Source: Argopecten irradians (lineage: Eukaryota; Mollusca; Bivalvia; Pectinida; Pectinidae). Taken from it: DNA of 64,000 nucleotides. The DNA is taken from NCBI RefSeq assembly GCF_041381155.1, contig NC_091144.1, positions 14,393,544-14,457,543 of the forward strand, given 5' to 3'. Below, piece after piece: positions 3,771-29,773 of this stretch (positions are counted from its first letter, which is position 1; the number at the start of each line of letters is the position of its first letter). The notes below the pieces were generated by a model. The model saw nothing but the letters and a program-made list of their open reading frames with translations. It was not told the DNA's origin and made no database searches. The position numbers and the translations under genes were made by a program.

Positions 3771-3954
3771 TGGCATTGATACCGCCACATAACACTACAA
3801 GGATCTTTTTACCGTAAGGTGTGATGAAAAACATGGCAGCTTTTCCTGTGCAGGGTAAGAGAAAGAGTTGTCTTTCACCAAGCAACCGGGGAATATGAAG
3901 TTCGGGGGAATATACGTACTTGTCTGATCACACCAATTTACACCTCACTCATTT

Positions 3955-7000: not shown

Positions 7001-7215
7001 TGGGAACTGTTTTTTTATAATATTTATCTATGATCTGTACCAGATTTATTACAATTAATATGAGTCTACTGGCGATTATTTCTGGGTGTCCAAGCAACTT
7101 GGGTTCCATTGGGCGAGATAGGCTACATTTAGTGTTTGTTTTTTGTACTTATACTAAACTTATGTCAATAACATACAACGTATGCTTTACTAAAAATATT
7201 TGCCCTACCCATTAA

Positions 7216-7614
7216 AGGCCCACTACCTTTCCGGAGGAAAACATAAAGGTTTCTTAAAAACATTAATAACATCAGAAAATATATACCAATGGCCTAAGAT
7301 GAGGTTACAACACCAAACATATGCAAGATTTCCTGCGTAATGTTTGATAACAGTGGAGAGTTATTTCGCTGTTTTGCCGTCTGGCGCAGTGATAGTCAAC
7401 TACCGCGCGGTATTTAGGACGACGGCGGGAAACATAAGACGACCCGCGTTATGAAAATTAACATTTTATTTATTTTAATCAAATTGTTTAGAATGTGATG
7501 ACACGTGTAGTATTAACGGTAAGTTAATAACTTTAGCGACTATACAAAAATATCGATCTCGTTTTACTTTCCCATTTTAGAAACTAAAAGCCGTTTCGGA
7601 AAGGTAGTGAGCCT
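7216..7614. mobile_element. TTAA-flanked MITE, about 400 bp (family 1, copy A)
   Basis: The element starts AGGCCCACTACCTTTCCGG and ends with the near-complement TTTCGGAAAGGTAGTGAGCCT. It is flanked on both sides by TTAA (7212-7215 and 7615-7618), the usual target duplication of piggyBac-type transposons. It has no coding capacity. Related copies are at 47151-47549 (the duplicate) and at 39048-39447 inside the unique block, which shows that the family moves independently of the large duplication. Confidence 0.8.
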
Positions 7615-8485
7615 TTAAGCGAATTAGTATGCACCATATACAATATAAGATTACCATTTAATAAACTCGACGCTAAAACAAGATGACATAGTCTTCAAAC
7701 GAAACAGAACAAAAAGAAACGATAAGGAAGTTCGTAGTACGTGGCCGACAAATATAAAAGCTTTGGATTAAAATATACAAGTTTGCCGTATACCACTGAC
7801 ATAACCTCAAAGATCAACAGTGCGTTCACATAATTACTTGAAAGGTAAATCCTGTATTTATAGATTGATAGAGGACATCGTATCTCCATATCTTAACAAT
7901 TTCATAACTACTCCAAACTACTGTGTTCAGTTCATACGATACGCTGAATTAAAAAAATGTTATTTTAGAATTATAAAAAATTGGTTTTAATTGTAGTAAA
8001 TATAGCAACAGAATAAAATGGAGATGAAAACATGAATATTGACAAAGGGAGGGATGAAAATGTTCATTTGATTTTAGGAAACACAAGAGTTGATGATATC
8101 CATAGGAGATCTCCACTCTAGATACCACGAGGCGATATATTATCCATCCGGCACAGTCCCTGCAGTACACGTATATGAAAAGGTGAGGTTGTTTGTTACT
8201 TTGAAATCCTGAGTTAAAATGATAAAAATTTCCATCTGAATGACTGGTGGATATTGACTTCATATGGATATATATATATATAACGTCATTTCCAATCTTG
8301 ACGTCGTTTACTTTGCATTCAATGTCTGATTTTTCATAAATGTATATTTATATTATAAGTAACGGCTATTCCCGATTGTCATCGATAATCAATCCGGTTC
8401 TACTTTGTACTGTACTTCAAAGTAGTTCATGTCTTTCGTTTTTCGTCACTTTTGAAGTTCTGTTTGGGGAATCCTCATGATATAA

Positions 8486-8495
8486 ATGACGTCAT
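8486..8495. promoter_or_regulatory. Palindromic ATGACGTCAT site beside the Tlx stop codon (copy 1)
   Basis: A full CREB/ATF-type palindrome lies three bases beyond the Tlx stop codon on the minus strand, in the presumed 3' UTR. It is identical in copy 2 (48411-48420). It may be chance; in a 3' UTR a DNA-binding role is uncertain. Confidence 0.25.
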
Positions 8496-8498
8496 CAA

Positions 8499-11400
8499 TC
8501 ACCGATCACTACGTGAAGAATCATCGACCCACGGCTGCAGGTTCTGTAGCGCGTGTAGGGAAGAGTTACTCATGCACAATGGGTCACGAATGTCATAGAT
8601 TGTCTTATTTGCCTCCGCCTGTAGACTTATCATTAAGCGGTTGGCCGCCTGACGTTCAGCCTCTCGTTCCTCAGCTGTCTGACGTCTGTAAAACAAAAGA
8701 AACATCATATATCGTATTGGTTCAAATTGGTTAAAGAAATATAAGATAACGTCATTTATCTCCTGGTACTTTTCATTATATAGGTTGGAAGAAACTAATT
8801 AATACAATTACCTTTTATTGCATATGTCCTTTCAGTTGTATGCATATTCGACTTTATATTTGAAGTTCAAATTAAACATCAGATAAATTGAAATGTTGTC
8901 TCCAGAGTAAGACTGGTGTTAGTTATGAACATCTTTAGATGCATTTGATAACACACTTATTTATCGTACATTCAGAGCTGATACCATCTCGCCTTTAATA
9001 CACATAGATGTGTATAGAATTATGTGCTCATTACGCTATTAATGGCAAACATTCTGCATAACATCGTTTCAATTAACCAGCAGTGCAAAAACGTGTTTAA
9101 ATAAGTGCGTATTTAATTAGTTTATGACGTCGATGTTTATATAACATAAAATTCCATTTTTTTAATCATTACTTTTCAAAGAAACTTTCGTTTTTATTCT
9201 CTGAATTAATTTAAATTCATAAATCTGTTAAGTTGTCTTTGCATTCATATATATGTTTCATTTAATTTTGTTGTGCTATCAGCATTTCCAAAAGTTTCAG
9301 AATGAATATATAATTTATCGATTTCAGGTTTTGTTTAATGGTCATTTTTCTATCCCAACAAGCATGATCTCACTAGAGTTTCGTTTATAAATTAGTATAT
9401 TGTAGGGGATAAATCAGATACTAGTATTTATCCGATGGTCATTGCTAACGATTGTTTAAATAAGAATGTACGAATACTGTTTGTGATAATTTGTTTAATT
9501 AACCTTAATTATTTAGATTTCACTGAATTAAGTAATTCTTGACAAAGGTATTTAGATATCAAAAGCACTTTGAAAATTGCTCGCTGCGTCAAACTTCCCG
9601 AAAGTTATAACTTCTATTCCACTATTAAGATGTTAATTTGTGCGAGTGGTTGAATCAGCAACAATGTGATTAAAGCCATACCTTTGATATCCACGCCGTT
9701 ACGGTAAACCTATAGAGTATGTAGCGACGTGGATAACAAAGATATGATTTAAAATAGATCAAAGTAGCAGCGTTTGGCAAAACATACATCTGACGTCCAC
9801 TGCTATTATCGTTACACATATTTCTTACAATTAATTACTTTGGTTTACTTACATAAATACGACATATTTGGTATATGTACTATGTAGTTATTTTAAAATG
9901 TTTTCTTTTCCTGAATTGGAATGTTGTTCATGTCTTAATTGAAATGTAATTAAATATTACTTGGTAACATAACTTCTCGTCCAGCTACTTGGCAGAGAAA
10001 TGAAAAGGAAGCTGTTTTATTTTAACTATAAAGGGAAATTACAATGTTTAAAGCGAATACATATTTGGTTTTATTTCGTTATGCATGTACGTCAATACAA
10101 ACTTTCTTCATAATCGCAATGCCCTGATCATTTTCTGCTGACATCAGTTTAACATAGAGTGTATGATTAGCCTTGCCACAACAAGAGGCAAGCTAAGAGA
10201 GTTAATTATCGAATTACTGAGTTGTTAGATAATTTTCATTCAGGAAAATCGAAACAGTTTAATGTTATAACAAGCAATTTCCTCTACGATATTGATACAT
10301 AATAGGAATTCTTGTAAATGTGAATTACTGTCGATAATTAAGCCCTGTCAGACATTGAACCAATATGGCGTCACAGCGGGAGCCCGGGTCCTTGACTAAC
10401 GTGAAACAATACAAAGACCGCTCCCGTTTAAATATAGATGAGCCGACGCGTGTCTTTAAACATCACCCATCCGTCGAAGACATTGTAAAAAGGAAACGGA
10501 TCCGTTCGTCTCAGCAGGGATGTAAAGACATCAGCGACATCCGCAGATAATGTACGAATTCAGTTCCTCACATTGGATTATACCCCAAAGGGAGTAAAGA
10601 TTTGAAATCATCGAGGCCCTTACCATAGTCCATAAATAACGATTTGCTACCAGCGTTGAAGTAACACTCTTTGTTTGCTTTTAAACATTCAGAGCACGGC
10701 CAATACATGTACCGCCCCATTATTTATGTTGCTGACCTGTTGATGGATTAAAACTACATCGAATGTGACTTACACCACAGACACATGAATTCATTAAATA
10801 GAAATGCAGACATTAAGCAGTTTATGTATCGGTACCTGGTGTGGTTATGATATTTCATCATATACGGAATACTGTATCACTAGGCATTATTTACGTTGGA
10901 ATTAAAATTTGGTCTAATGAATACAGCTGTATTTTCAATACAGCGTTCCATCTTGATACAAGACTTTTTAAGATTGCTACCACATTATACACTATAATGA
11001 ATGTCGAGGAAATAACAAAGTAAAATCGAATCTATGGAGTTAAACAGACAAACCGAATCCTTCTCGTGCATTAAGTTATGCCCCTTCATACTACCCAAAT
11101 AGTACGCTGATATTAATTTAGCCTGCTTCTTCGTGCGATTTTCGTTGCCAAATCATCGTCTTTTAATATATATTTTATGAAGAATCTCTGTTACAATGTT
11201 TTATTTTGCTTAGTGTTTTACGTCTTAAATACATCCTTATTAGGGTGTTATTTGAACTATATTACATAGTACCGTAGTATGTGATTAACTATGCTGTGTA
11301 TTGCATTCGGCGATGAATAGCAGCATTTTAAGCTAATCATGGTAATCTTACCTCCATTTTTTGTCCGACGGTTTTGGAACCACGTTTTCACCTGTGCATC

Positions 11401-11570
11401 TGTCATTTTCAGCGCCTTTGCTAATGCCGATCTTTCAGCCGAGGCGAGGTACTTTTGTCGATGGAAACGCTTTTCAAGTTCCATGATTTGAAGCCGTGTA
11501 AACGATGTCCGAGGTTTTTTCCGTTTTGGAGGTGTTCTGTTCTGATATGGGTGTCCTATCCGCCGGGTAA
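8499..11570 (-). CDS. Tlx: Tlx homeobox transcription factor, last two coding exons (copy 1)
   Basis: Exon 2 (11352-11570) encodes [20 protein letters not shown] followed by a full homeodomain with recognition-helix sequence [11 protein letters not shown]. Exon 3 (8499-8685) continues [19 protein letters not shown] and ends [17 protein letters not shown] and stop. Both match the vertebrate TLX1/2/3 homeodomain and C-terminus closely; Tlx proteins are nuclear DNA-binding factors of the NK-like class. Acceptors (CTTCAG, TTACAG) and donor (TGGAG|GTAAG) fit. The last codons of exon 2 should read ACA-AAA-TGG, but this copy has six A bases instead of four, shifting the frame by two just before the conserved Trp; copy 2 has the correct length. 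Exon 1 (N-terminal, EH1-like region) is not visible and would lie to the right, where the unrelated block begins. Confidence 0.9.
10365..10550 (+). CDS. Small open reading frame of unknown function inside the Tlx intron (copy 1)
   Basis: A 61-codon frame starts in a good context (caatATGGCG), is more GC-rich than the intron around it, and ends TCCGCAGATAA. The product is basic and hydrophilic (begins [15 protein letters not shown], contains [11 protein letters not shown]) with no membrane segment. It lies antisense to Tlx in its second intron. The copy at 50293-50478 is base-for-base identical although flanking intron sequence differs at several places, hinting at constraint. It could also be a first exon or a CpG-rich regulatory element; I do not recognise a domain. 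Confidence 0.3.
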   Translation: MASQREPGSLTNVKQYKDRSRLNIDEPTRVFKHHPSVEDIVKRKRIRSSQQGCKDISDIRR

Positions 11571-13069
11571 CTGAAGAATATGATTAAAAAACTATATTGT
11601 ACATGGTAACCGCATTGACAGATATAAATAATGAAATAGAATCTTGAAGTATGACATTGGGCTTACAGTAGGTTATTATGTAGCCGTCGATAGAGACGCT
11701 TCATCTCCCGCATAACCTGGTCCTATACCTCGCTTATGTTCTGTAGAAATGTTTCTGCTAGTCGTTATTTTGTTACGGTTGGTTTAAAATTAATATCTAA
11801 AATTACAAAGAAACTGTTTAAACTCTGTATAATGTTTAGACAAGGTAGTACTAACAGTCCCGCGAATGATGCAATGCTTTCCTTAAATGTGATATATTCT
11901 ATAACTACGTATGAACATGATTTTTTTTTCATTGAGTCTCATATTTATTAGTAAACTCACAATATTAATGTCTTCATAATATATGCACATGAGATATTTT
12001 TTTTTTTTTTTTTTTTGCAGACGTTTTGCAAAATTTGACTTCATAAACATTTGCTACAGGAAGGCAAGCTTTTAACATCCAAGGATAGTAATGTTGATGT
12101 TATTTATAATATTCGAAATACCTGAAACAGGAAAATCCAATCTTTATTTGTTTCCTTTCATAACATTTAATGTTTAATATAAAACAAATAAACCGGTAGA
12201 GTATGTATGTATATTTAACAAAGTACACGTGCATAAGGCCTGTTTGCCCCTTTTCCTATTTTGCTGGTAACATATGAAAATATATTATTGACTCCTACCT
12301 CTGCAAACATTTAAAAATACGATTTCTCGTTATCTTGCTTATAGGTGTTCAATGACAATACCACCTTTGGTGATATAATTGGTTTTGTCCATATCTTCGA
12401 CAATAGATACAGCATATTTTCTCAGTGAAAATCCTCTTGCGTAAACTGCATGCGTGAATATTTTGACAAGTGCTTAATTTTACGATTTGGATTTAGAAAA
12501 TTTTCACAGAGTTGTTATTTTCGCGAAAGATACACTTTCCGACTTTTAAGAACGAAATTCATTCATGCACAAAAATATAACGCGATGGGAATATTTTCGC
12601 GATCAAGCGACCTCCGCATAATTAGAGTAAATTTGCCCTTCGCGTAAATACCCAAGTTCACAGTAACTAGTAGTGTAGCCGTGAAATGTTGGACACAATT
12701 TGCATTCACCTTAATGATAATGTTGGTAGTTGTCAATATGTAAGGAAAAATTTTAGAAAATATTTTCAGTGCCAAATAAACAAAAAGGCCATGTTCTTTA
12801 ATTTGTTGATCAGTTACTATATTGTATATTATGTTCACTCGATTTATACCGTCAAAATCAGTAACAATTATTTTGAAATGTTAAGTTTACTTGGTTAAGC
12901 CGTTAATCACCGCTTTTATTTTTCCACAAGATGTACTATTTACAAGTATTGTATTGATTCATAGGTATAAAATAAACGAATTACCTGCCATTTCTGTACA
13001 TTAATGCCCTCATGTAGATAAGTTAGGCACAGCATATCGTCAAGTCTACAGGGACCTTGTAATTTTATA
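11571..13069. other. Presumed Tlx intron 1 sequence, truncated at the duplication edge (copy 1)
   Basis: AT-rich DNA upstream of the homeobox exon. Apart from a long T-run (about 12000-12016, shorter in copy 2) and a stretch with repeated TTCGCG motifs (12470-12655), nothing stands out. It ends at 13069 where homology with copy 2 stops. Confidence 0.5.
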
Positions 13070-13072
13070 CCA

Positions 13073-15193
13073 ATGACTCCAGCATCTTCGTCTCATGCAC
13101 CCATAGCAGATGAGCCAACATTAATGACTCCAGCATCTTTGTCTCATGCACCCATAGCAGATGAGCCAACATTAATGACTCTAGCATCTTCGTCTCATGC
13201 ACCCATAGCAGATGAGCCAACATTAATGACTCTAGCATCTTCGTCTCATGCACCCATAGCAGATGAGCCAACATTAATGACTCTAGCATCTTCGTCTCAT
13301 GCACCCATAGCAGATGAGCCAACATTAATGACTCCAGCATCTTTGTCTCATGCACCCATAGCAGATGAGCCAACGTTAATGACTCTAGCATCTTCGTCTC
13401 ATGCACCCATAGCAGATGAGCCAACGTTAATGACTCTAGCATCTTCGTCTCATGCACCCATAGCAGATGAGCCAACATTAATGACTCCAGCATCTTCGTC
13501 TCATGCACCCATAGCAGATGAGCCAACATTAATGACTCTAGCATCTTCGTCTCATGCACCCATAGCAGATGAGCCAACATTAATGACTCCAGCATCTTCG
13601 TCTCATGCACCCATAGCAGATGAGCCAACATTAATGACTCCAGCATCTTCGTCTCATGCACCCATAGAAGATGAGCCAACATTAATGACTCTACCATCTT
13701 TGTCTCATGCAGCCATAGCAGATGAGCCAACATTAATGACTCTAGCATCTTCGTCTCATGCACCCATAGAAGATGAGCCAATGTTAATGACTGTAGCATC
13801 TTCGTCTCATGCACCCATAGCAGATGAGCCAACGTTAATGACTCCAGCATCTTCGTCTCATGCACCCATAGCAGATGAGCCAACATTAATGACTCTAGCA
13901 TCTTTGTCTCATGCACCCATAGCAGATGAGCCAACATTAATGACTCTAGCATCTTCGTCTCATGCACCCATAGCAGATGAGCCAACATTAATGACTCCAG
14001 CATCTTTGTCTCATGCACCCATAGCAGATGAGCCAACATTAATGACTCTACCATCTTTGTCTCATGCACCCATAGTAGATGAGCAAATGTTAATGACTCC
14101 AGCATCTTTGTCTCATGCACACATAGCAGATGAGCCAACATTAATGACTCTACCATCTTTGTCTCATGCACCCATAGTAGATGAGCAAATGTTAATGACT
14201 CTAGCATCTTCGTCTCATGCACCCATAGCAGATGAGCCAACATTAATGACTCTAGCATCTTCGTCTCATTCACCCATAGCAGATGAGCCAACATTAATGA
14301 CTCCAGCATCTTCGTCTCATGCAGCCATAGCAGATGAGCCAACATTAATGACTCCAGCATATTCGTCTCATGCAGCCATAGCAGATGAGCCAACATTAAT
14401 GACTCCAGCATCTTCGTCTCATGCAGCCATAGCAGATGAGCCAACATTAATGACTCTAGCATCTTCGTCTCATGCACCCATAGAAGATGAGCCAATGTTA
14501 ATGACTCTAGCATCTTCGTCTCATGCACCCATAGCAGATGAGCCAACGTTAATGACTCCAGCATCTTCGTCTCATGCACCCATAGCAGATGAGCCAACAT
14601 TAATGACTCTAGCATCTTTGTCTCATGCACCCATAGCAGATGAGCCAACATTAATGACTCTACCATCTTCGTCTCATGCACCCATAGCAGATGAGCCAAC
14701 ATTAATGACTCCAGCATCTATGTCTCATGCACCCATAGCAGATGAGCCAACATTAATGACTCCAGCATCTTTGTCTCATGCACCCATAGCAGATGAGCCA
14801 ACATTAATGACTCTAGCATCTTCGTCTCATGCACCCATAGCAGATGAGCCAACATTAATGACTCCAGTATTTTTGTCTCATGCACCCATAGTAGATGAGC
14901 AAATGTTAATGACTCTAGCATCCTCGTCTCTAGCATCCTCGTCTCTAGCATCTTCGTCTCATGCACCCATAGCAGATGAGCCAACATTAATGACTCTACC
15001 ATCTTTGTCTCATGCACCCATAGCAGATGAGCCAACGTTAATGACTCCAGCATCTTCGTCTCATGCACCCATAGCAGATGAGCCAACATTAATGACTCCA
15101 GCATCTTCGTCTCATGCACCCATAGCAGATGAACCAACGTTAATGACTCTACCATCTTCGTCTCATGCACCCATAGCAGATGATCCAACGTCT
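13073..15193 (+). repeat. Coding minisatellite, 41 units of 51 bp
   Basis: The unit begins ATGACTCCAGCATCTTCGTC and encodes 17 residues. Units differ mainly at a few positions (Pro/Leu at residue 3, Ser/Leu at 6, Ala/Glu/Val at 12, Thr/Met at 16), so variants recur in a patchwork, as expected of unequal exchange or conversion. Unit 37 carries two extra 15-bp pieces (CTAGCATCCTCGTCT). Because 51 is a multiple of three and the unit lacks stops in another frame too, the minus strand is also open over long stretches; that is a side effect, not a gene. Confidence 0.97.
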
Positions 15194-18100
15194 CTTGGAT
15201 CTTTGACCGTAGATGAGGAGCCTGGATCTTCAACTCACAGGTTTTGTCCTAGAAATATGACATTACCAGATTCTTCTGACTCATCCAAGGTTTCAGAAAA
15301 TGAAAATGATTCTACATATATCCCATCTAATGATGAGATGTTTTCCCATGTATCTGACTCTTACTCCTCTGAGGAAATAGAATATCAAGGTGCCCCAAAA
15401 ATCAAGAATGTTACTACAGACAGTGATGATGATGATGATTGTGTGGTCTCTGGCAGCAATAAACTTAAAGAGAAAGATATTGTGCGGGATAAGAAAATGT
15501 CTGGTATTTATATGAGAAAACATACACACAAGGAAAAGGGGTCATGTGCCAAACGGGTTTATGATAATTTTCATGCATGCTTCTACTGTGGAAAATTGGT
15601 GCTACATATTGCAGTACATATGAAAATACATAGAAAGGAAAAGGAAGTAAAGGAAATCATGAAAGAGGAAAAAAAAGATTTCACAAATCTTAGAAAACGC
15701 GGAGACGATAGGCACAATAGAGCGGTGGTTAAATCTGGAATGGGAGAAATGATTCTGGCAAGGAGGCCAAGTAACAACAAGTTCGATGTGTCGCTGTATG
15801 GACCATGTCCACACTGTTACGAATGGATTCTTCTAGATAACATAAAGGAGCATCATCGAAAATGCACAGAGACACAAAGGGGAAAGACAATGTATACTGA
15901 AAGGAAAAGAGATTTAGTTGTAAAATCGTCAATCATTGCTGGACACTACAGATCAAAACCTTCAGAAATGATGGCAAAAGAAGTTTTTAGTTCCATGCTG
16001 AAAGATACTGTGAGTGAAATTGCTCAAAATGACAAACTGATTGTATCTCTTGGAGAAAGCTGGCTGCGTAGAAACCTGGATAATGAGGCAAAACGGAAGT
16101 ATTATGCCAGCTCAAGAATGCGTCTTTGTGCAAAATTACTGAAAAACCTACGAGAAAGAGATGCAAGTAAAAAGACAGATGGCAGTGAAAGTGATGCTGA
16201 GAGTGATCATGGTGAAGCTGAGTCTATGTCAGCTGAAACTTCGAAAAGTCTTTGGCAGTACTTAACAGTCAAAAAATTTGATGATGTCATTGTAGCAGCA
16301 ATCCAATGTGCAGCGCCATACATGGATGATGAAGAGGATTTAAGATCCCCATCAAACGCAATAAAACTGAAATATGATATTAGGAGATTAGTTAATGCAA
16401 AATGGGCATTCATTGTTAAAAGCCAGGGAGAGGCCAAACTAGCAGAGGAATGTAAAGTCTTTCTAAGTCTGATGGATATAGAATGGGCAGAGAAAGTCAC
16501 TAAAATGGCATATTCAGTTCTTCAACGCAGGAAATACACAGAAGTGAAAGAAGTCCCATCTCCAGCAGATATCAAAACCCTAACCCAACATCTTATGCAG
16601 GAATTGAAGGCCATTAAGTTGATTCCAGAGAATTTCACTAGAATTGCTGTCTTGTGTTTGACACGACTAATGATGTACAACAAAAGACGTTCTGGAGAGA
16701 TCGAGGTTGTGAAGTAAGTAAATTAAAGCATACATTTTGCATGTATTTAATGAGTTGTTTTAACCTCAAAATATTATTATTTTTCATTGATAAACTATTT
16801 GTAATTTGAACATCCCACACTTCTTATTTTTATCAATATGTTTGAATACATTTTTTTTTATTTGTTTCATGTATTTAACATTTAATAACTTTCTGATTGA
16901 AGAGAAAAGATGGAAATAAATAACATTTATTATCCTCGATGCCATTTTTCAAAAACTATCAAGAAGTTATTGACTAATTGAAAACAATTTTGATGCTTTT
17001 TGTTTCTAAAACCTTGTTTGAGCATAACTAAAATAATTTAATCATTTCTTGACCAGAATTTCTTACAGTTGGTTCAGTTACAATCTAAACTTGAGATGAT
17101 TCAGTGATAATATTATCCATGGTTATTTTAGGCAGAGTAGCTATGCCTCAAGAATTCAAAACATGAGTGATATGGACAAATCTTTGGCAGAAGACCTAAC
17201 AGATGTTGAGAAATACCTGCTTAACTCGCAAGATTTGATGACCGTGCGCGGAAAGGTTTGTAATTGATCCGTAATTTAATTTCCAGATATTAATGGGATT
17301 TATTCTATACACAATGCAAATATGTCATTAAAACTTGAAATATGTAAATATCATAAAAAGAAAGTACCATAGATGTATATAAACAAATGTAATGTAAATA
17401 TAAATCTATTAAGTTGATATTGTGTAAAAGTATCCAGCTACAGACTGATGCATTTTTTTGATCTAGTAATTTTTCTATTGTTGTTTCTTGCTTGACCATC
17501 TCTTATGCATGCCCAAACATTTACCAATCTTATTATGATATCCTGAGTGTCATTTTAAATCAATTTAATGAAAAAGACAGTGGTCTTGTGTAGTAATTAT
17601 TGATTAAATTAGACTAATGTTGATGCAATTTATTTCAGCGTGGAAGACCTGTGCCTATTATTGTGCCATCAGATGCAAAGAAACCACTGCAGTTTCTGTC
17701 ATCCAAGGAAATGAGAGACAAGGCAAGGATTTTGCCATGCAATGACTTTCTGTTTCCAAATTCAAGTAAGTAACAGTAATAAGTAGGAAAAGTCTTGCTG
17801 TCATTTTAACAGTACATACACCCATTTCAAAGGCATTCTTTACTTATCTCTATTTAAGTATGTTTTGCATTCAAATATATAATTGTTATTGCCGGCATAG
17901 AGAAATGAACATAGAAGGGGCTTGTAGAATCATTTTGGCGTTGACGTCGATGTTGCAAGGTTAAAGTTTTACCACTGTTCTATCAAAGAATATCAGTTTA
18001 CTTGATCTTGATTTATCACAATAAACTGAGAGAGGCGAGCTATGCTTTTCTCAAACATTGAATCTTGGATATTAGGATGAACTCTGTGAAGCATTAAAAT

Positions 18101-21100
18101 AAATTGGAGCACAGTATGTCTTACATTGATATTTGAACTGTTTTTCGGGATGCTGTTCTATATCAAAATAATTTTATATTTTCAGTGAAGTCATACATAA
18201 GGGCATATCATTCCCTCAAAACAATATGCAATGAGTGCAGCTTGTCAACACCAAAACAAATTACAAGTGTGTCTCTTAGAAAATATACGGCCACACTAAC
18301 TCAGGTATCAAGTTTGAATAAATTATATCTGAATCAATTGTCAATCATCAGATAGGTCTCTTCATTCAACATCCTGCCATCATTAACAATGAATTATCTT
18401 TTTCGTGTGTGATATGTGAACAAGGTACATGCTAATGAAAATAAGTAACATATTTTTACACCCCAACCACGAAGGAAGGGAAGCGAAATATCATGTCATC
18501 GATGGTCATCCTGTCCTTTTGTTTCCTATCCAATTCTATTATACATTGTATTAATTTAATTATAATAATTTCATTTTTCAGATGTTTGACTTAAGCAAAT
18601 ACCAGCTTGAGTGGGTCTGTAAACATTTAGGCCACACTAAAAGAGTGCATAAAGAACATTACCAGCAAACCAGTAGTTTGCTGGAAAGAGTCCATGTCTC
18701 AAAACTCTTACTGGTCCAAGACCTTGGACTTACGTCCAAGTATAAAGGCCAAAGTTTGGAGGATTTGGATATTAGAGGTATACTTAATACTGCCAAATAT
18801 TTGCCTAGACTTTTAGCATGATAAATCAAGACTGTAAAAGGGTTAAATTATTTCATTTGGAAATATGAAGTCTTGAAGATATACTTTACCTGGTAAGTAA
18901 TATCTTGTAAGACTGTAAGTTTTATTCATATATTTTAAAATGTCATTAATTTTTTCATGACAATGCTTCTAAATTAATGTTGTGATATCTATGAGGTGAT
19001 GTAATGAATATATTGTGATCACAATTTTATTTTGAATTTTTCATAGAAATTGTGATGCCAAGTGCTGGTGACTTACCTGATTCCAGCAGCAGTCGAACAT
19101 CAATTGAAGCATCAGTTGAAGCAGTTGAACCATCAGTTGAACCATCAGAACAGAAGAGGTATGTGATTCAATTTTGCTTATACGTTCAGCTTAATTTTTT
19201 TATGAAATATCTGAACTCATTGTTCTTGGCACTTTAAGAGGATCCTTACGATAAACTAACTATCCACTGCTAATAAATTCTTTTAAGAGGTGAGTGTGAA
19301 CACACAAGGAAAACTAATTCAATTAATTGACTATGTCACATATATTCTGTTCCAGTCATGAAAATGTTAGAAATTAATATATTGCTCAAATATGATGAAC
19401 ATTATTTTAAACTGTTGGTGTACAGATGATTCCGCTTATTTGAATAAGTCATTTTCCAGAAGAAAATATGCAAATAACCGGAGTATTCGAATAGGCGGAG
19501 ATGGCATTAAGCACCTCCGTTTGACCCCCTACATATCCATGTGAACAGGCAGATAGATATCGTTTCTTCTAATGATAAATACGTAAATCATTTACTCTTA
19601 AAACGAACAATAGGTGATTATTTTTGAAGTTGTAAATCAATTTTAATTGTTTCATAACAAAAAATATTCCAATATTAGATTCTTTTTTACGCTAGATCGA
19701 CACGTGAATCTTTGAGAAACAGCTAAACGATCGATATCAAATGCAATAACTAAACACGATTGAATTTGTGTCTGCAATTCTGAACCTAAATAATAAACTA
19801 ATTTACATACATTTGCCCGGCAAAATGAGCTTACGATCATGATTAAACGATCAACTAGCAGTGTTGTTTTGACACTTGGGTATGAATTCGAAAATGGCGG
19901 CGGGTGATGAAGCCATGTGTTCCCTGGACCTAAACTTGTTTTGAGAATTCTTCCTGTAATGTTGATCGATACGGCGAATAGCTTGGTAACATTTCAGAAA
20001 TTAATGCATATCCAAGTAGCAATGAAACGAGGTAGCAAGTATCTTTTGTATCCATAATATTACATACAAAACTTGCAGTAGTCATTGCACGCCGACTTTG
20101 TATGCTTTTATGTCTCGTTCAACGAGACGCTTGATACACACATGTCTCGCGTAGTCATCAAGACTCTTCTGGTTGAACGAGACTACTCATAAATGGCGAT
20201 TGTTGTAGGGAAGCATGTTTTCTCCAAACGATCGCCAACTAAGGTACGTTATGTTAATAAATAAACATATTTGAAAGTGCAAATGCTTTAATTAGATGTT
20301 TGAGTCAGTGATTATTTTACTAAAGTAATGATCTACCTCTGCTGATGTAAATCGTAACAGCGTTGAATACCTTTGCAGATTCATGCATAAAATAACAAGC
20401 CATACGATAACATTAATCTGTCTCCATGATGATTTCTAGTAAAAGCGAAGTATCTTGAAACATATATCGGCGAATTTCACTAAATATATATTACAAAATT
20501 GATAAATATTCAATTTTATTTTTAGAATTTCCCAAATATTTTATTCGAATAACTGGAGGTCATGTAAAAGTCTATTCAAATACACGGAGTTGAAAAACAA
20601 AGATAAAGAAGGAAAAAAATCTGGACCGCAGAATTTTATGTAAAGAACCGAAATATTCAAATAACCGTTATTCGATTATGTGGAGTCCTCTGTATATTCT
20701 TTTAATTGTATGCAATTATGAATGCAAAAGGGGCAAGGATGACCTAAAGCCATCATGTTTTGTCTGTCGTCATTCTGTTATTTTCCGGATAGGTCCAAAA
20801 TCCAAGATGGTCATCAGGTCCACCATTTTGAAAACACATTTTAAAATTATTCTCCAGTTCTTTTGTCGGATTGAGCAAAGTCTCTTTGTATGTTTTGTCT
20901 GTATGTTCGTCATTATCTCCCTCATTATTCAAGCTTTAAACTTGTATACAGATGATTGTGTTTTAAAAACACATTTGTATATACAGTCTTACCCACTTAT
21001 ATTGAACTCGGGTATATTGAAATCCTGCTTAACAAGTATACAATCCCCTTCCACAATGCCATATAATCTATGTATTTTTTCCCGGTTAAGTTGAATTGGC

Positions 21101-22834
21101 TACTATGAAATCCCATGTTGTATGAAGTCTTGTTTGTCCCAGTCACCACTTTTTCAACTAATTTTACCCGGATATTGTGTAAACATTTGACTGATATGAA
21201 TCGGTGGCTCAAGCCAGACATAGTGTACATTGTTTAAACAAAGGCGAGAATGGGCCGTGCCCTGTATGAATGGAAACTTAATTGACCTTGAAGTTGAGTG
21301 TTCACAGATGAGTTTTGATGTTGTGAGTAAAAGTCGTAACAAAAATATAAACCAGTCGTGGAACAAGGACTAAACCTAAAACACAAATAACGAAGGAATT
21401 TGACATCAAACCCAGTACATTAGGTGAGATTTTGAACTAAAAGATAGAATAATAGAGACATGTGAAAGAGGAAAGTTTACTCCGAAACGGAAACGGAAGC
21501 TGTGACAGGGTCGAGGTTGAGTCCGATAACCCAGATTACCTGATTCCATTAACGAATAACATGGGTATGGAATGTAGTTATTTCTGTAGATAATTACGTT
21601 TCTATGGATGATAACGTCACCACAACCACAACATTATCAGATCTATGTACTAACGTCGACATTGACTAGGATGACGATGATGATTAAAAACATGACTAGG
21701 CTAATGCTGAGGCACGAAACTGCTGCATCACTAAACTAACAACTTGAAGGTACATTCAAAAAAACAAAACGTTTTTAAAATATTTTTGTCAGTCTTGCTT
21801 GCAATAGTTTTATTTGTCAGCAACAAATTTGTTGACAAATAAGAGACAGTCTCGCAAAAGCAATTTCTTTCAAAAATGACAATAAGGCTTAATTACCGGA
21901 GAACAGACTGCAGTATCGAGGGTATGATATATTGTAAATGTTAAATGTTTAATGAAATCAATTTTATAAAAAAAATTATGTAAATTAAAACAAATGATTC
22001 TAAAATTAGTTTATTAAAATATTTTGATTTTCTTGTTGTCGTTGTTGATGGTCGGATCTACGTCTAACAAGGGAAGTAAACTCGAGATGTCCTACGAAAA
22101 TGCCAACCCGGTTATATAGAAACCCGCTTATTATAAACAAATTCATACGGTCCCCTGAAATTCATTATATACAGGTCAGACAGTATTCCTCATGGTACAG
22201 TAGTTAGATGACCATTAATGCCCTTGTTGTCATCCAGTAGCCTTTTACAAAATTATAATCACAAATTTCAACTCGGGTTAATTTCAATGTTTACAGTTTA
22301 ACTTGGCTTTAGAAGAGTTTGGAATAATTCTGCAGTATTCACAACATCAATGTTGTAATTTAAGTCATGTTCTGACTGAAGGGAAAAATCTTTAAACAGC
22401 GAAAAATGCAACATTTTTTTTATATTGAAAATGTAATTTATGTCTATGTTGCAGTGATGATGAAAATTAAACAGCAAAAAATGCAACATTTTTTTTTATA
22501 TTAAAAATGTAATTTATGTCTATGTTGCAGTGATGATGAAAATGACAGCTCTGAAGATGCATCTATCTTCAAATCAGAGAGTGACAGTGGTGATGAGGAT
22601 CATGAGCCCAAAGAAAAAAAACAAAGAAGAGCCCGAAAAACATGGACTCAGCAAGAAGAAGATGAAATTAATCTCTATTTTGAAGACTACCTGAAAGCAG
22701 GTATTACTCCAAGGGGTCCTGCGTGCGAAAAGGCTAAGTTAAAAAGCAAAGCTAACAAAGGCCAAATCCAGTTTAGGCAGAACCATTTGATAATAAAAAA
22801 AATCAGTGCAATGAATCATAAAAAAAGATTGTGA
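13073..22834 (+). CDS. Repeat-rich zinc-finger / tyrosine-recombinase-like protein, seven exons, 1540 codons
   Basis: Exons: 13073-16713, 17132-17255, 17639-17765, 18186-18304, 18582-18777, 19047-19158, 22531-22834. All introns are GT-AG and the phases join without a stop. Order along the protein: 41 near-identical 17-residue units (1-707; MTPASSSHAPIADEPTL type), an acidic Ser-rich linker, a C-x2-C-x9-H-x3-H motif from Cys836, a C-x2-C...H...C motif from Cys912, then a domain resembling tyrosine recombinases: NKRRSGE (about 1203-1209), RGKRGRPVP (Lys1255), SLRK (Arg1329), LGH (His1355) and a candidate nucleophile Tyr1364; finally a Myb/SANT-like tail (RKTWTQQEEDEINLYF). From memory, this C-terminal architecture matches an uncharacterised, often expanded metazoan family; similarity to Crypton-type recombinases is inference. 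The His of the usual HxxR motif is replaced (VSLR), so catalysis is doubtful. A stop at 13019 precedes the first ATG, and the true 5' end may be missing because homology to copy 2 ends at 13069. Confidence 0.85.
19423..20692. mobile_element. TA-flanked DNA transposon remnant, pogo/Tigger-like ends, in intron 6
   Basis: The left end CAGATGATTCCGCTTATTTG and the complement of the right end (CAGAGGACTCCACATAATCG) are imperfect inverted repeats, each bordered by TA, the target duplication of Tc1/mariner and pogo elements. The inside has no long open frame, so the element is non-autonomous or decayed. It sits wholly in the 3.4-kb intron before the last exon of the recombinase-like gene. Confidence 0.5.
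20984..22183. mobile_element. Second TA-flanked DNA transposon remnant in intron 6
   Basis: The left end CAGTCTTACCCACTTATATT and the complement of the right end (CTGTCTGACCTGTATATAAT) are imperfect inverted repeats next to TA dinucleotides. Subterminal sequences (TTGAACTCGGG and CCCGGTTATATAGAAACCC) are also partly complementary. No transposase frame is visible. Together with the element at 19423-20692 it makes up most of intron 6. Confidence 0.45.
22395..22543 (+). repeat. Tandem duplication of an intron/exon boundary, two units of about 75 bp
   Basis: Two adjacent units (about 22395-22468 and 22469-22543) each contain a T-run, the acceptor sequence TCTATGTTGCAG and the exon start TGATGATGAAAAT. 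Use of the second acceptor (exon start 22531) keeps the frame open to the stop at 22834. Use of the first (exon start 22455) would meet TAA after SDDEN. The second is therefore taken as the real exon 7 start. Confidence 0.85.
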
Positions 22835-22847
22835 AGATTGTGATTAA

Positions 22848-24435
22848 GCATCTTCATCTCTAGAATCTTTGTCTCTAGAATCTTCATCTCTAGAATCTTT
22901 GTCTCTAGCATCTTCATCTCTAGAATCTTTGTCTCTAGAATCTTCATCTCTAGAATCTTTGTCTCTAGAATCTTCATCTCTAGAATCTTTGTCTCTAGAA
23001 TCTTCATCTCTAGAATCTTTGTCTCTAGCATCTTCATCTCTAGAATCTTTTCTCTAGATCTTCATCTCTAGAATCTTGTCTCTAGCATCTTAGAATTTTG
23101 TCTCTAGAATCTTTGTCTCTAGCATCTTCATCTCTAGAATCTTTGTCTCTAGCATCTTCATCTCTAGAATCTTTGTCTCTCTAGCATCTTCATCTCTAGA
23201 ATCTTTGTCTCTAGCATCTTCATCTCTAGAATCTTTGTCTCTAGCATCTTCATCTCTAGAATCTTTGTCTCTAGCATCTTCATCTCTAGAATCTTCATCT
23301 CTAGATCTCTCTAGCATCTTCATCTCTAGAATCTTTGTCTCTAGCATCTTCATCTCTAGAATCTTTGTCTCTAGCATCTTCATCTCTAGAATCTTTGTCT
23401 CTAGCATCTTCATCTCTAGAATCTTTGTCTCTAGCATCTTCATCTCTAGAATCTTTGTCTCTAGCATCTTCATCTCTAGAATCTTTGTCTCTAGCATCTT
23501 CATCTCTAGAATCTTTGTCTCTAGCATCTTCATCTCTAGAATCTTTGTCTCTAGCATCTTCATCTCTAGAATCTTTGTCTCTAGCATCTTTGTCTCTAGC
23601 ATCTTTGTCTCTAGCATCTTCATCTCTAGAATCTTTGTCTCTAGCATCTTCATCTCTAGAATCTTTGTCTCTAGCATCTTCATCTCTAGAATCTTTGTCT
23701 CTAGCATCTTCATCTCTAGAATCTTTGTCTCTAGCATCTTCATCTCATCTTTGTCTCTTCATCTTCTCTAGAATCTTTGTCTCTAGCATCTTCATCTCTA
23801 GAATCTTTGTCTCTAGCATCTTCATCTCTAGAATCTTTGTCTCTAGCATCTTCATCTCTAGAATCTTTGTCTCTAGCATCTTCTTCATCTCTAGAATCTC
23901 TTTGTCTCTAGCATCTTCATCTCTAGAATCTTTGTCTCTAATCTTCATCTCTAGAATCTCTAGCATCTTCATCTCTAGAATCTCTAGCATCTTCATCTCT
24001 AGAATCTTTGTCTCCTAGCATCTTCATCTCTAGAATCTTTGTCTCTAGCATCTTCATCTCTAGAATCTTTGTCTCTAGCATCTTCATCTCTAGAATCTTT
24101 GTCTCTAGCATCTTCATCTCCTAGAATCTTTGTCTCTAGCATCTTCATCTCTAGAATCTTTGTCTCTAGCATCTTCATCTCTAGAATCTTTGTCTCTAGC
24201 ATCTTCATCTCTAGAATCTTTGTCTCTAGCATCTTCATCTCTAGAATCTTTGTCTCTAAGCATCTTCATGTCTCTAGCATCTTGGTCTCTAGCATCATTA
24301 CATCTCTAGAATCTTTGTCTCTAGCATCTTCATCTCTAGAATCTTTGTCTCTAGATCTTCATCTCTAGAATCTTCGTCTCTAGCATCTTTGTCTCTAGCA
24401 TCTTCATCTCTAGCATCTTTGTCTCTAGCATCTTC
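22848..24435 (+). repeat. Satellite-like array of alternating 15-bp units (about 30-bp period, about 53 periods)
   Basis: The array alternates TCTCTAGAATCTTTG and TCTCTAGCATCTTCA, with occasional repeats of one type and many 1-3 base indels, which are densest at the right-hand end. It starts 14 bases after the stop codon of the recombinase-like gene and would lie in its 3' UTR or flank. Open frames on both strands (Ser/Leu-rich plus strand, MLETKILEM-type minus strand) are by-products of the period. The 15-bp unit matches the core of the upstream coding repeat. Confidence 0.95.
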
Positions 24436-24508
24436 CGAAAGCTGCTAAGGAAACTTGCCGTCTCCTCCAGGTTCAGCAAAACTTCACGCCCAGTTTTGTA
24501 CACAAGTG

Positions 24509-27500
24509 TTTGGGTGCATGTGAACGTACACACCGTGTCCTGGCTGAAAAGCTTACACCGTACATGAATCGTGCCAAGAACAACTGGGAAAGCTTATTGC
24601 CGTCCATCATATTTGCCATGAATGCTGCAGTCAACCGTATGTCAGGATACTCACCTTTCGAAGTTGTGTTCGGTCAGCGCCCAACCTTTCCATTAGCTGG
24701 AGTTCCAGTGGATATGTCGACTATACCGGCTAGCATATCTACTTATGTTGAAGATCTTCAACGTCGTTTGGAGGTGGTTCGGTCACACATGAAGGATGCA
24801 GTCTTATTGAATCAGGACAAAATGGTTGCCCAACAACTTGGAAATAACAAGGAAACAGTTCAGACGGGAGATTATGTTTTATTTACAACAAACGCCCACA
24901 GGTGCTGGACATAAACTTCAGAACATTTACTCAGACGTACTAGTAGTTAAAGAAAAGCTGTCTGAACATTTAGTGACCCTAAGTGATCCTACCACAGGGA
25001 AAGTTGGTACTCGCCCTGTTCACTTAGATCGACTAAAGCCAGCTCATATTCGCGCCCCAACACCCTCAAATTATTTCCGTATTGTTTCAAACAACAGAGT
25101 TGAATGTGGTGTCCAAACTGAAGACTTTAGCCCTATCACTTCTTCATCCTCTAACCGCGAGTCTGCTAGTGACTTACAGTCAGATATAAATGAACATTTC
25201 CCGCAGATTAATGGAAGCGACTCATCTTCACCGATATCCTCAAACCTCGATTCTTCCAGTGACTTACATTCTGATGTAAATGTATCCTCTCCGCAGGTTG
25301 TAGGAAATGACTCATCTCGTTCGATGTCCTTAAACCAGGAGTCTACTAGTGATTCACATTCAGATATTCATGCGCCATCTCCACAGGTTATAGAACGTGA
25401 TTCCTCTTCATCTACTCCATTACCTGTGTTACCTCAAAGACCTAAACGAACAATAAAAAAGCCAGTGCGCTACCGTGATTCTAGCTTTACAGCTGATTCC
25501 GACATGTCTTCGTCAACTGGACAAGATAAATTCTATAAAATCAAACGTGTTCTGGCTCAAAGAGGATCTGGAGCAACGCTTGAATATCTCATCCAATTCA
25601 GAGGAGAACCATCACAAAATGCCATGTGGCTGAAACCACGGGACTTGAATACTCATCCTCGGAAAACATGCCTTTTGAAGCCACCTAAAACTGTGTTATA
25701 GAGAATGTATTATATGTAGGGGTGCATAATTGTTGTCTTATGCACAGGTTCAGTACTTGTTGTTCTATTGACTTTTTGTATGAAATTGATGACTCAAATA
25801 CTGATTTTATGAAATCCAATTATCCATATGTAATGCAGTGTATTGAGTGTTTTCATTATTTGATGTTTAAGATGAGGCCGATACTTTTTGCCATAGTTAG
25901 ATGTTTTTATACTGAAGGACTGTATTGTAAAATGATGACATTCATGTTTTTGTATGGTTTTCATATTTTATGATTGATTTTGAATTGATGATTTCCTTAC
26001 AACATAACATTTCTCACCTTTTTTTTTAGATTTTTTTAATCAAATGAATACATTGATATATTAGACAGAACTTTGCTATGTTGGAAGTGTGCCACTTCTC
26101 AATATTCCAAATTATGTATTGATGCTATAGATTTTTTCATAATGTTGATCTCTGATTAAGAAAATTCATGTTCTATATTTGTTTGTTTGTATATTTTTTG
26201 CCATTCCCCATGTCTGATCAGATGACATCTTGATTGGAAATTTATTGATGCAACATAAAAGAGTCCTTGACCAAATATCTCTTTTTAAATTCTAGTCAAA
26301 GTGATGAATACCTATAACTATTGATAATTAAATGCACTGAATTAAAGATAATAATATGAGAATCTTATTCTCATGTGAATGATATATTTTCCCAACAGTT
26401 TTGTATAGTATGTATTTCATGAATGGGTTTGCATATGAATAAATTTAGATTGAGTTTGATATTTGACATGCAATAATCATAATTTGATATATTCTGATAA
26501 TGAAATGGATATTACCATGATATTCATTATATGAATTTAAACTTTGACATTAATATGGATTTCTGCAATGTATGGTGAAATGATTAGCTCCCATGTATAG
26601 CTATTGCATTGAAATGTTGTGGATTTTTGATAATTGACCATGCACACTCAAATATGTTCATGTTATGTTTATGCATTTATTGTTCAGAGATTTTGTTTTA
26701 TTGTAAAGGTATCACAATATTACTTATTTGTGAAATAGAGATTTTCAGTGTGCCAATGCCCTAATACTAGTCAAAATATCTGTATTTTTCGCTGTTGTTA
26801 TTACAACTTATTCCATTCTTATTTTCTGGAAAAATTTCCTTACAACACCTAGAACTCAAAACCAGATTTTAAGCAAAGTTACTTCTATGTAATAGGAAAT
26901 GCTATGTGTCACGTTACATTATACAGGCCAGAAACTCTCTTGTGCATGTTAAGTATTACCTTTTAAATGGAAATCTTGTTTGTTCCAAATGTATTATTGT
27001 AACAGTAGGCATGGTTTAGTCATGCTAGTAGATCTTGTAACCAGACAAGGTCATTTCTTTTTACAATATTACTGTGAGGGTTCATAAACACATTTTTCTG
27101 TTTTCCTCTTACTTGCACTTTGTTAAATGTGTCACATTTGAGGATGTTTTCAATATTCTCCTGGTTAATGTAGAGTGCTCCTTTGTTTAAGATGATGTTT
27201 GTGATAGTTTGGTGCATTTTGATAATATGCAAAAATGTTAAAATTCAGATATCACTCTATTTCTGTATAATATTACACGTATGACTTGCATTCCTGAACT
27301 ATGGTTTTGATCGTATTTATTAGTATTTTCTTTGACATGTCGTTTCAAAATTGTATGCACAATTTTTGTTTGGGGGGCGGGGATGTCGTATACGTGTATT
27401 TGTACATGTCAAAGAAAATATAAATTAATCCGGAATATAAAAATGTTATATGTTTGGTTCTAATTTTACAATCTCAATTTTCCGGAATTGTTTCTCCGGG

Positions 27501-27659
27501 TTTCGGTTATTATGTTACTTATGTGAAGAAAATGAAAATAAACGAAGCAGGCAGCAGAACAGAAGATTTTGTCATTGTTTCGACCCTTATTTTGTATGTC
27601 TGACGTCGCCTTCACAACAAAATCCTCTCACAAGCCTTTCCCGGCGACGACACTTGACA
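24509..27659 (+). mobile_element. Fossil Ty3/Gypsy LTR retrotransposon, 3' part only
   Basis: The left part (about 24509-25700) encodes the end of a Gypsy-type pol: the integrase segment ERTHRVLAEKLTPYMNRAK, the motif SGYSPFEVVFGQRP, and a chromodomain-like tail (YLIQFRGEPSQNAMWLKPRD). A long AT-rich untranslated region follows. A purine tract GGGGGGCGGGGA at about 27372-27383 precedes a candidate 3' LTR (27384-27659, beginning TGTCGTATACG and ending CACTTGACA). Everything upstream of the integrase end, including gag, protease, reverse transcriptase and the 5' LTR, is absent, and the satellite array abuts the truncation. The element is broken, with 5' truncation and at least one further break. 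Age cannot be read without a paired LTR. Confidence 0.75.
27324..27420. repeat. 17-bp perfect inverted repeat around the candidate LTR start
   Basis: TATTTTCTTTGACATGT at 27324-27340 is the exact complement of ACATGTCAAAGAAAATA at 27404-27420, with a 63-base spacer that contains the purine tract and the first bases of the candidate LTR. It could form a hairpin in RNA or be the ends of a small inserted element. Confidence 0.6.
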
Positions 27660-27682
27660 GCCGATGGGTGCCGAGAATGATA

Positions 27683-27975
27683 GGGCAGTAGGATTCAAAA
27701 TTGTACAAATGATATGGGGCTGACCCTCGTGCCCTGTTTGGCGGGCCCAAAAGGGGTCAAATTGGCTATTTCATAAAAACGACTTCTTCTCTGAAACTAA
27801 GCATTGCCGGACAGCACTCATAATGCAAATTCAGTGGTAGCATCCTTATAGGGTAGGGATTCAAAACTGTACAAATGATGTGGCTGACCCCCAGGGGCCT
27901 GTGGGGTGGGGCCATTAGGGGTCAAATTGCCTATTTCCTTTAAACGGCTTCTTCTCTGAAACTAAGCATAGGATA
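27683..27975. repeat. Two diverged tandem units of about 125-130 bp
   Basis: Both units run from AGGGNAGGATTCAAAA-type sequence through TGTACAAATGAT, GGCTGACCC, GGGGTCAAATTG and CTTCTTCTCTGAAACTAAGC (starts near 27683 and 27850). They sit between the fossil LTR and the candidate promoter of the EEP gene. No coding capacity. Confidence 0.7.
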
Positions 27976-28019
27976 GCCCTCACAACGTTGTAGGGAAACT
28001 TACCATCTATATATGATAT

Positions 28020-28090
28020 GGGACGGCGTGCGCGACCAATCAAACGGCGCGTTTGACCTTGCCCTAAAAGAGGCTATTTTCAGCAACAAG
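28020..28090 (+). promoter_or_regulatory. Candidate GC-rich promoter with CCAAT box
   Basis: A local GC-rich island contains GGCGTGCGCGACCAATCA (CCAAT at 28036-28040, next to an NRF-1-like GCGTGCGC) and is followed by CAACAAGATGGCTGC at 28084-28098. This arrangement resembles a TATA-less housekeeping promoter. Assignment to the EEP-domain gene downstream is inference. Confidence 0.4.
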
Positions 28091-28125
28091 ATGGCTGCAG
28101 AGTCTGAAGCGATGACCGGCGAATG
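28091..28125 (+). CDS. Candidate first coding exon (MAAESEAMTGE) of the EEP-domain gene
   Basis: An ATG in good context (caagATGGCT) opens 11 codons and two extra bases before a possible donor GAATG|GTATTT. It is on the right strand and close to a promoter-like island. However, at least one exon carrying the first strands of the EEP fold would still have to lie between here and 32373, and I could not find it. It may equally belong to another transcript. Confidence 0.3.
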
Positions 28126-29087
28126 GTATTTATTTAACACTCTTATTATATATTTCCGTTGTCCATACTTTGTTTTAGTCTAAATATATACATATTAAGA
28201 ACATGCAAACCAGTGTAGAAAACTAGATGCTCTTTAAAGAGTGTGTTTTCCGCGGAAATTTAAATGAAACACTTGCCCTATGACCAAACCTATTGCGATT
28301 TAGGTAGGCTAGGCCTAGATACCACCCGTACTGTTCGATTTTCACCTCGATGTCTTGTAGGAACATGTGTTTAGGATATCAAAAACAAATTGGTATTTTG
28401 GAGGCTTCCTAATAAGCAGGAAGCAAGATATCGTTTTAATAATGAAATATGTTGGTAACCCCCCGCCTCCCCCGCACACACAGATCTAACACACTCATAG
28501 TTAGGCCTATTACAATGCCGGCACATGATCTTGCGCACCTAAGAGTTTCATAGCCGATAGATAATTCATTAAATATTTATTTATTGTTAAATTATGGTGT
28601 CAGCAAGGAACAAACATTTGTTTTTCAGTACCTTCCATCAATAAATGATATCTTTTCAGTTTACCAAAAATAAACGAAAAACATTGACCTTAACAGCTGT
28701 TATCCCATGTTTGAACTGTAAACACGGCACATGATCTTGCGCAGTACACTATAATCCAATTTTAATCATACTATGATATTCAATTTATTTAGCTGACCAT
28801 TCTAATTTCAATGAAAAACAAAATAATTGAATTATAAATCAGACTGCAATTTTTAAAAATGTCAAATAAAAAAACCAATGGAGACTTTTTAAATCAGGAG
28901 TCACTTTCCGCCATTCTTCCACTATCGCCCCATTGTAACACGGTACGTCTGCACCTTAGACTAAAAACTGAGATTGTATCAGAATTTACATTGCCATTCT
29001 ATACTTTTTATGTCTGAATAAGTTTGTTACTTTATTAAAATTAGCTGAATTAAATTACCAGTGCACAAGATCATGTGCCGCGCAAGT

Positions 29088-29230
29088 AGTCCGCTAAACC
29101 TGCCTATATTATGTATATATTATATTTATTTTTAATTTATTTTATTATTTTTTTTTTGCCTAAGATATTAGGCAAAAAAAAAAAAAAAAAAATTAAAAAG
29201 CCTAATAATATAGGCAGGTTTAGCGGACTA
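29088..29230. mobile_element. Fold-back MITE (family 2, copy A)
   Basis: The left arm TAGTCCGCTAAACCTGCC, continuing TATATTAT, is the exact complement of the right arm ending at 29230. The centre contains GCCTAAGATATTAGGC, itself a palindrome, and a long A-run. The whole 143 bp can fold into a hairpin. No coding capacity. Confidence 0.8.
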
Positions 29231-29773
29231 CTGCGCAAGATCATGTTCCTTTCCTGAAAAAATAAACGAAAAACATTGACCTTGCAAAAAATGCGAAAGT
29301 TTTTCTCTTTAGCAAATATGAATTTCATTTAGCAAATTGTGAAAAACATTAATTTAAATAACTAAGGAGCATCAAATAAACAGCTGTTATCCCATGTTTG
29401 AACTGTAAACACGGCACATGATCTTGCGCAGTACACTATAATCCAATTTTAATCATACTATGATATTCAATTTATTTAGCTGACCATTCTAATTTCAATG
29501 AAAAACAAAATAATTGAATTATAAATCAGACTGCAATTTTTAAAAATGTCAAATAAAAAAACCAATGGAGACTTTTTAAATCAGGAGTCACTTTCCGCCA
29601 TTCTTCCACTATCGCCCCATTGTAACACGGTACGTCTGCACCTTAGACTAAAAACTGAGATTGTATCAGAATTTACATTGCCATTCTATACTTTTTATGT
29701 CTGAATAAGTTTGTTACTTTATTAAAATTAGCTGAATTAAATTACCAGTGCACAAGATCATGTGCCGCGCAAG

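Follow-up and report, generated by a model that had tools for sequence, protein, structure and literature searches.

What is the seven-exon gene that lies open across positions 13073–22834 of the forward strand in this 64,000-nucleotide stretch of Argopecten irradians DNA (the window; contig NC_091144.1): a living host gene and perhaps a domesticated Crypton-like transposase, as an earlier note proposed, or a copy of something that moves? We find that its protein is tyrosine-recombinase (YR)-like and Crypton-like, with a divergent YR domain, and we give a probability of roughly three in four to the gene being a stranded copy, its coding frame intact, that derives from an intron-bearing lineage within a Crypton-like family of YR DNA transposons, together with the mechanism proposed below. 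The family, its copy number, the near-identity of copies, their ends at microsatellites, the conservation and the arrays are all seen directly.

Mobility is most evident in an intronless subfamily that forms elements of 17–18 kb. The copies on contigs C3 and C4 (5.02 Mb) are identical in nucleotide sequence over 574 codons, the C13 copy has 1 nucleotide changed relative to that C4 copy over 503 codons, and all three reside on different chromosome-size contigs. C3 and C13 share a 17–18 kb block, 97–99% identical outside arrays, with (AC)n at both ends; the 5.02-Mb C4 copy has the same gene-3′ end, and its other side is cut. These C3-type termini occur at five places per end, 100% identical, and pair into four full-length elements of 17.2–18.4 kb, one each on C3 and C4 and two on C13, of which the second C13 and the 4.98-Mb C4 elements were read as ends and family matches only. 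The gene-3′ flanks meet (AC)n in 8/8 ends; five of the six gene-5′ flanks keep the end, which meets (AC)≥6 in four of them and degenerate AC-rich sequence in the fifth, and the sixth (L067) is without it. The flanks on C241 and C10 resemble each other and could represent a single insertion. One end reads (AC)n, ATACCC (missing from C241, C10 and C8) and GTTTACCAAGC, and the other TTGTAAACCA(AC)n. By eye, short arms TTGTAAAC and GTTTAC(c)AA lie near the ends, and long terminal inverted repeats are not seen; if the ends were joined, the arms would face each other in inverted orientation across an AC spacer, as in a YR core site. As background among the loci examined, (AC)≥7 occurs once far from a terminus (L045) and once ~70 bp from a terminus (L047), and no AC run reaches even 6 units in the window. 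A second, intron-bearing subfamily (C7, C10) ends at (AG)n in 2/2 copies read, 12 bp long on C7 and 36 bp on C10, as read at one end in two of three copies, and only 2 other runs of (AG)≥6 were found in 299,640 host bases. On the evidence of these two subfamilies, the family is one of Crypton-like transposons homing to dinucleotide microsatellites.

As a separate observation, a terminus in L063 (C8:11012050–11012240) has ACACATACCCGTTTACCAACACAC before it, by appearance a joined or leftover end.

We reproduce the gene model exactly as it was previously described, with seven exons, six introns that are all GT-AG, and 1,540 codons plus stop. Its parts are as follows, all on the forward strand.

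13073–15191, +, in-frame tandem array of 41 units of 51 bp, with the 17-residue unit MTLASSSHAPIADEPTL and minisatellite-like behavior
13073–16713, +, exon 1: array, acidic linker, zinc motifs, pre-catalytic region and Arg I region
15578–15634, +, C2H2-like motif C836-x2-C839 ... H850-x3-H854, read directly, with rows L043, L041, L035, L037 and L040 aligned
15806–15865, +, C2HC-like motif C912-x2-C915 ... H927-x3-C931, read directly, with family rows aligned
16685–16699, +, RRSGE of the Arg I region (R1205/R1206); RR-x-GE is invariant in the 8-row family alignment
17132–17255, +, exon 2, last residue K1255
17639–17765, +, exon 3, with RGRPVP; one G, one R and the V are invariant in the 8-row alignment
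18186–18304, +, exon 4, with SLRK and R1329 at 18278–18280; the HxxR histidine position is V1326
18582–18777, +, exon 5, with LGH (H1355 at 18633–18635) and the nucleophile candidate Y1364 at 18660–18662
19047–19158, +, exon 6, linker
22392–22543, +, 76-bp tandem duplication doubling the exon 7 splice acceptor
22531–22834, +, exon 7, conserved tail (WTQQEEDEINLYF...)

Use of the upstream copy of the exon 7 acceptor would truncate the tail, the protein ending after S-D-D-E-N. Repeating an open 51-bp unit cannot close the frame, and the open frame across the array is therefore weak evidence for a gene; what lifts the model beyond chance is that genomic relatives share its exon ends and that the protein is kept although synonymous sites are saturated. 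L043 and L041/L004 share its exon ends near residues 1214, 1255, 1297, 1338 and 1402; exon 1 compared with L043 has a proportion of synonymous differences (pS) of 0.82, a nonsynonymous divergence (dN) of 0.52 and 47% identity, and exon 5 is 65% identical to L041, likewise at saturated synonymous divergence. The labels “zinc finger” and “Myb-like” hold as motifs recognized by eye, but a Pfam search of residues 703–1540 gives zero matches above cut-off. These relatives also bear on the idea that the model joins exons of two or more separate, unrelated genes as a reading artefact, which a 3.4-kb intron 6 might invite; this is very improbable, since a stretch of no more than 10 kb in L043 matches exon 1, exons 2–5 and the tail with their order and orientation kept, and the same arrangement is seen in L041 together with L004.

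The gene does not stand alone. At E ≤ 0.01, exon 5 is matched 42 times across the 846-Mb genome, the window's own match included (41 others), residues 706–1213 of exon 1 have 82 matching stretches, again with the window's own and several per locus, and exon 7 has 9 matches at E ≤ 0.01, 8 besides the window's own; all three figures are matches, not counted copies. A unique gene is rejected by the exon 5 and exon 1 matches. A 20-row tree divides the family into two halves with split support of 100/100, namely half A of 11 rows (window, L041–L043, L007, L010–L013, L015, L016) and half B of 9 rows (L018, L024, L026, L027, L029, L035, L037, L039, L040); it rests on 147 columns and has four open forks, and two of its rows fill under half of the columns. 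Introns stand at matching places in L043 and L041/L004, are fewer in L018, L024 and L029, and are absent from L035–L039. In the alignment that supplied the zinc-motif rows, L042 and L011 hold apparently misread stretches around exon 4.

Tyrosine recombinases carry R ... K ... HxxR ... H/W ... Y in order, and RRSGE, K1255, R1329, H1355 and Y1364 all stand where they were earlier placed, as does the changed HxxR histidine. All 8 rows of the family alignment keep RR, R, GH and Y, and the HxxR histidine is replaced by T or V in 8/8, recently moved members included, so its loss is not decay; being common to all, the change is no sign of exaptation, and we reject domestication as inferred from it. 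The profile of the family aligned by hhalign with XerD, FimB, FimE, lambda Int and P2 Int places K, R, H and Y in register (E = 0.0052). Phage_integrase (PF00589) is matched by 1/8 aligned members; full-length L035 matches it at E = 6.2e-5, short of that Pfam model's cut-off, and full-length L037 and L043 are without a match. The structural comparison that the earlier note had suggested was run on the domain of the relative L035, not on the window protein, with an AlphaFold2 model built from 22 alignment rows (alignment A5, cut from 26 by dropping four N-terminal fragments misplaced by MAFFT, one of them from the window). Foldseek places XerH, XerA and XerD in 8/9 best PDB positions, with a probability of 0.92–0.93 for XerH, and 7 of the first 8 matches in the viral library are named integrase or recombinase. 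A PDB sequence search found no relative, and in a search for viral relatives 20 stretches fitted a pattern, with zero confirmed. Taken together, the evidence for the tyrosine-recombinase identity of the family is good but not conclusive.

At the family level, the near-identical C3, C4 and C13 elements provide what marks a Crypton, a mobile YR element that is without reverse transcriptase and that has no long terminal inverted repeats, only the short arms near the C3-type ends. The open reading frame (ORF) list of the C3-type elements holds no large second ORF; apart from the gene, the only ORF of at least 110 residues is one of 114–125 residues per copy. A DIRS/Ngaro YR retrotransposon is not what we find, as that list contains no ORF sized for reverse transcriptase/RNase H in the C3-type element. 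Classic CryptonA is likewise rejected: PF12012 (DUF3504) is unmatched by the window protein and, at E ≤ 1, by the 8 aligned members, and among the listed matches of its 151 in the genome there are no family loci. A genome search with PF00589, in which 149 of 354 candidates were scored, also has no family locus among the matches listed. The counts of 151 for PF12012 and 149 for PF00589 among scored candidates make it probable that this genome contains several further groups of YR elements.

Some CryptonV families are said to insert specifically in microsatellites (PMC8869645, citing Kapitonov and Jurka 2012), and the present elements, likened to them by description only, are also DNA transposons with a YR and a microsatellite insertion, at (AC)n for the C3-type and (AG)n for the C7-type; further traits of the present family are its element size of 17–18 kb, its introns, its N-terminal arrays and the choice of AC in one lineage and AG in another. 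Like the domesticated CryptonA/DUF3504 genes ZMYM2-4, QRICH1, KCTD1, KIAA1958 and WOC, the window gene is YR-derived and sits in an animal genome, but animal Cryptons are reported to lack a C-terminal domain (PMC3212892), and the window clade differs in carrying a conserved C-terminal tail. The telomere-repeat-specific YRs of endogenous nimaviruses, which target (TAACC)n within large viral genomes (PMC10871703), resemble the family by description in joining a C2H2 domain to a YR and in integrating into a simple repeat; the family differs in not being part of a large viral genome and in its AC/AG targets. With bacterial XerH/XerD and phage integrases the family shares the order and register of K, R, H and Y and the best fold matches, and it differs from them in the T or V at the HxxR histidine and in the added zinc motifs and arrays. 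No earlier description of the family was found in the literature searched, which had subscription papers and Repbase reports outside its scope.

We count 41 in-frame 51-bp units in the window array, in agreement with the original count, when up to 14 differences from the consensus are allowed per unit. Among the distinct changes between units 21/23 are nonsynonymous, compared with 108/149 of those possible, so no peptide constraint is visible in the array, and the array as a selected peptide is unsupported. A second array of this kind, on contig C734, passes into other DNA with no exon 1 after it. The fusion of a repeat to such a domain recurs: other units, unlike by eye, occupy the equivalent N-terminal place in four other member lineages, with units of 30 bp in L035 and L039, 180 bp in L036 and L037, 90 bp in L041 and 48 bp in L043. 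Copy number differs even between almost identical elements, the 180-bp array holding 4.2 copies in L036 and 5.2 in L037. The repeat is thus a fast-changing add-on and no one-off. All five N-terminal periods (30, 48, 51, 90 and 180 bp) are multiples of three, for which chance gives ~1 in 243 if the periods are free and independent, while the 3′ arrays located between gene and terminus have periods of 73 bp in C3-type and 67 bp in C7-type elements. The arrays of L036, L037 and L043 lie wholly within the gene's frame. Weighing against frame keeping, the array loci were selected for long open frames, a choice that favors periods divisible by three; the frame running on into the gene covers only 476/1,285 bp of the array in L035 and 297/555 bp in L041; and the 15/30-bp period of the 3′ array in the window is divisible by three too. 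The repeat is probably a sequence-free spacer held to the reading frame, and the five periods divisible by three, with their varying copy number, suggest that coding minisatellites arise repeatedly in one family.

To our knowledge, the target choice and movement of Cryptons are poorly known. In the recently active intronless lineage, the enzyme would most likely excise the element as a circle, which would be inserted by YR strand exchange with the crossover in the microsatellite spacer between the short inverted arms TTGTAAAC ... GTTTACcAA; (AC)n would serve as the attachment site, and (AG)n in the second lineage. The zinc motifs and the region up to the catalytic domain may bind DNA, presumably at the arms, and R1205/R1206, K1255, R1329, H1355 and Y1364 are the candidates for the chemistry, which would proceed without the usual HxxR histidine. 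The N-terminal repeat would be a spacer that arises repeatedly by minisatellite growth. Near-identical elements with both ends defined in one genome make this a concrete attachment-site model that a plasmid assay can test. A bolder version, in which active members home to a chosen dinucleotide repeat as recombination spacer, lineages have switched target (AC versus AG), a fast-growing N-terminal minisatellite that keeps the frame turns over from one near-identical copy to the next, and the window gene lost its ends and was kept by the host, strikes us as on balance unlikely.

Several results count against a stranded member of a mobile YR family. All microsatellite ends that were read come from the intron-poor half of the tree (L037 and L018 types) and none from the half with the window. 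Two near relatives, L043 and L041 (2/8 rows), have Q in place of K1255; exon 1 of L041 is split between frames, and the N-terminal frame of the C13 copy is interrupted, leaving three ORFs of 258, 249 and 503 residues. No Pfam YR model is matched by the window protein or by 7/8 aligned members, and the hhalign probability against bacterial and phage YRs is only 7%. The L035 model is middling, with a predicted local distance difference test score (pLDDT) of 60 and a predicted template modeling score of 0.53; Foldseek returns zero matches at E ≤ 0.001 (best PDB 0.055, best viral 0.0054), and a longer model from 2 rows reaches a pLDDT of only 41.

The surroundings of the gene show how it may have come to be stranded, and add the following features.

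13070–13072, no strand, breakpoint at the end of a segmental duplication, 3 bp before the first ATG
22847–24434, +, 15/30-bp tandem array whose start lies 13 bp past the stop codon
32063–32064, no strand, other edge of the unique block 13070–32063; L045 from 4132 onward matches the window from 32064 onward

Window 1–13069 recurs at 40483–52988, 96–98% identical by block, and the two copies run together to 13069/52988 and then diverge (CCAATGACTCC versus TACAGACATT); leftwards the duplication extends to L045 4132, equivalent to window 32064, at 94–97% identity by block. A segmental duplication of ~20 kb (94–98% by block) therefore flanks a gene-bearing unique block of 19 kb; it may stem from a true tandem duplication, from haplotypes retained side by side or from an assembly join. 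The putative start of the model, the frame's first ATG, lies 3 bp from the structural breakpoint 13069|13070, and no recognizable transposon terminus is seen on either side of the window copy. This duplication edge on the 5′ side and the absence of any known terminus are why we call the copy stranded, and without a recognizable terminus it probably cannot move itself; “living gene”, as concluded from the open frame, is unsupported as put. The block 13070–32063 might itself be the inserted element (19 kb, compared with 17–18 kb for the C3-type), but its edges are without a dinucleotide repeat of at least 6 units, and the window contains no (AC)≥7 or (AG)≥6.

How far the copy is still a gene is where the remaining explanations part. 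It may be a recently dead fragment, carried by a segmental duplication or an assembly join and intact only because it is young, which is compatible with the family reading and which we hold to be a serious possibility, if short of an even chance. The 5′ edge falls within the tandem array, the 3′ array passes into other DNA, and the block stands between two flank copies that are 95–98% identical; moreover, the first bases of contig C734 already belong to an array of this type, a possible sign of trouble for the assembly at this point. Set against a dead fragment are the 1,540 open codons with all splice signals present, and the freedom from gap letters of the window and of L044 and L045 to its left. 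The intact frame and splice sites also suit a domesticated host gene that lost its termini and was kept by selection as a DNA-binding factor or recombinase, as do the lack of any near-identical full copy of the window gene in the genome, the missing termini and the 47–65% identity to L041 and L043 at saturated synonymous sites. A transposase lineage would show equal conservation, however, the gene's 5′ end stops at the duplication breakpoint, and the array peptide bears no sign of purifying selection; in addition, C15 carries a recent copy of window 18280–19177 (0.9 kb) that is 94% identical and contains a stop, with 4/321 differences in exon and 13/548 in intron sequence. Domestication is accordingly quite unlikely: the Crypton-like part of the earlier proposal stands, in the form of a Crypton-like YR family, and the domesticated part, possible as it is, was unsupported as put. 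A stranded, coding-intact transposon copy thus remains the reading we prefer.

All 38 genome matches to the unit of the 15/30-bp array (≤2 mismatches) fall inside 22847–24434, and the array ends at 24434 in a frame that by eye resembles part of a Ty3/gypsy integrase, with no Pfam support. Near the other edge of the block, window 30925–32068 holds a 155-bp tandem repeat that is headed by (CGTC)n and has a fixed tail, seen also at L009, L011, L035, L039 and L044; it adjoins four family members and is present in the flank L044 as well, and we reject it as a transposon end because it is a dispersed repeat of its own kind. Window 28692–29256 and 29379–29944 are direct copies of ~566 bp, 99.8% identical and 122 bp apart, each with an internal inverted repeat. 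Both duplicated segments carry a homeodomain exon (PF00046, E = 6.9e-21), presumably TLX-like, on the reverse strand at window 11257–11583 and 51285–51501, which is open in the first segment and frameshifted near 51444 in the second.

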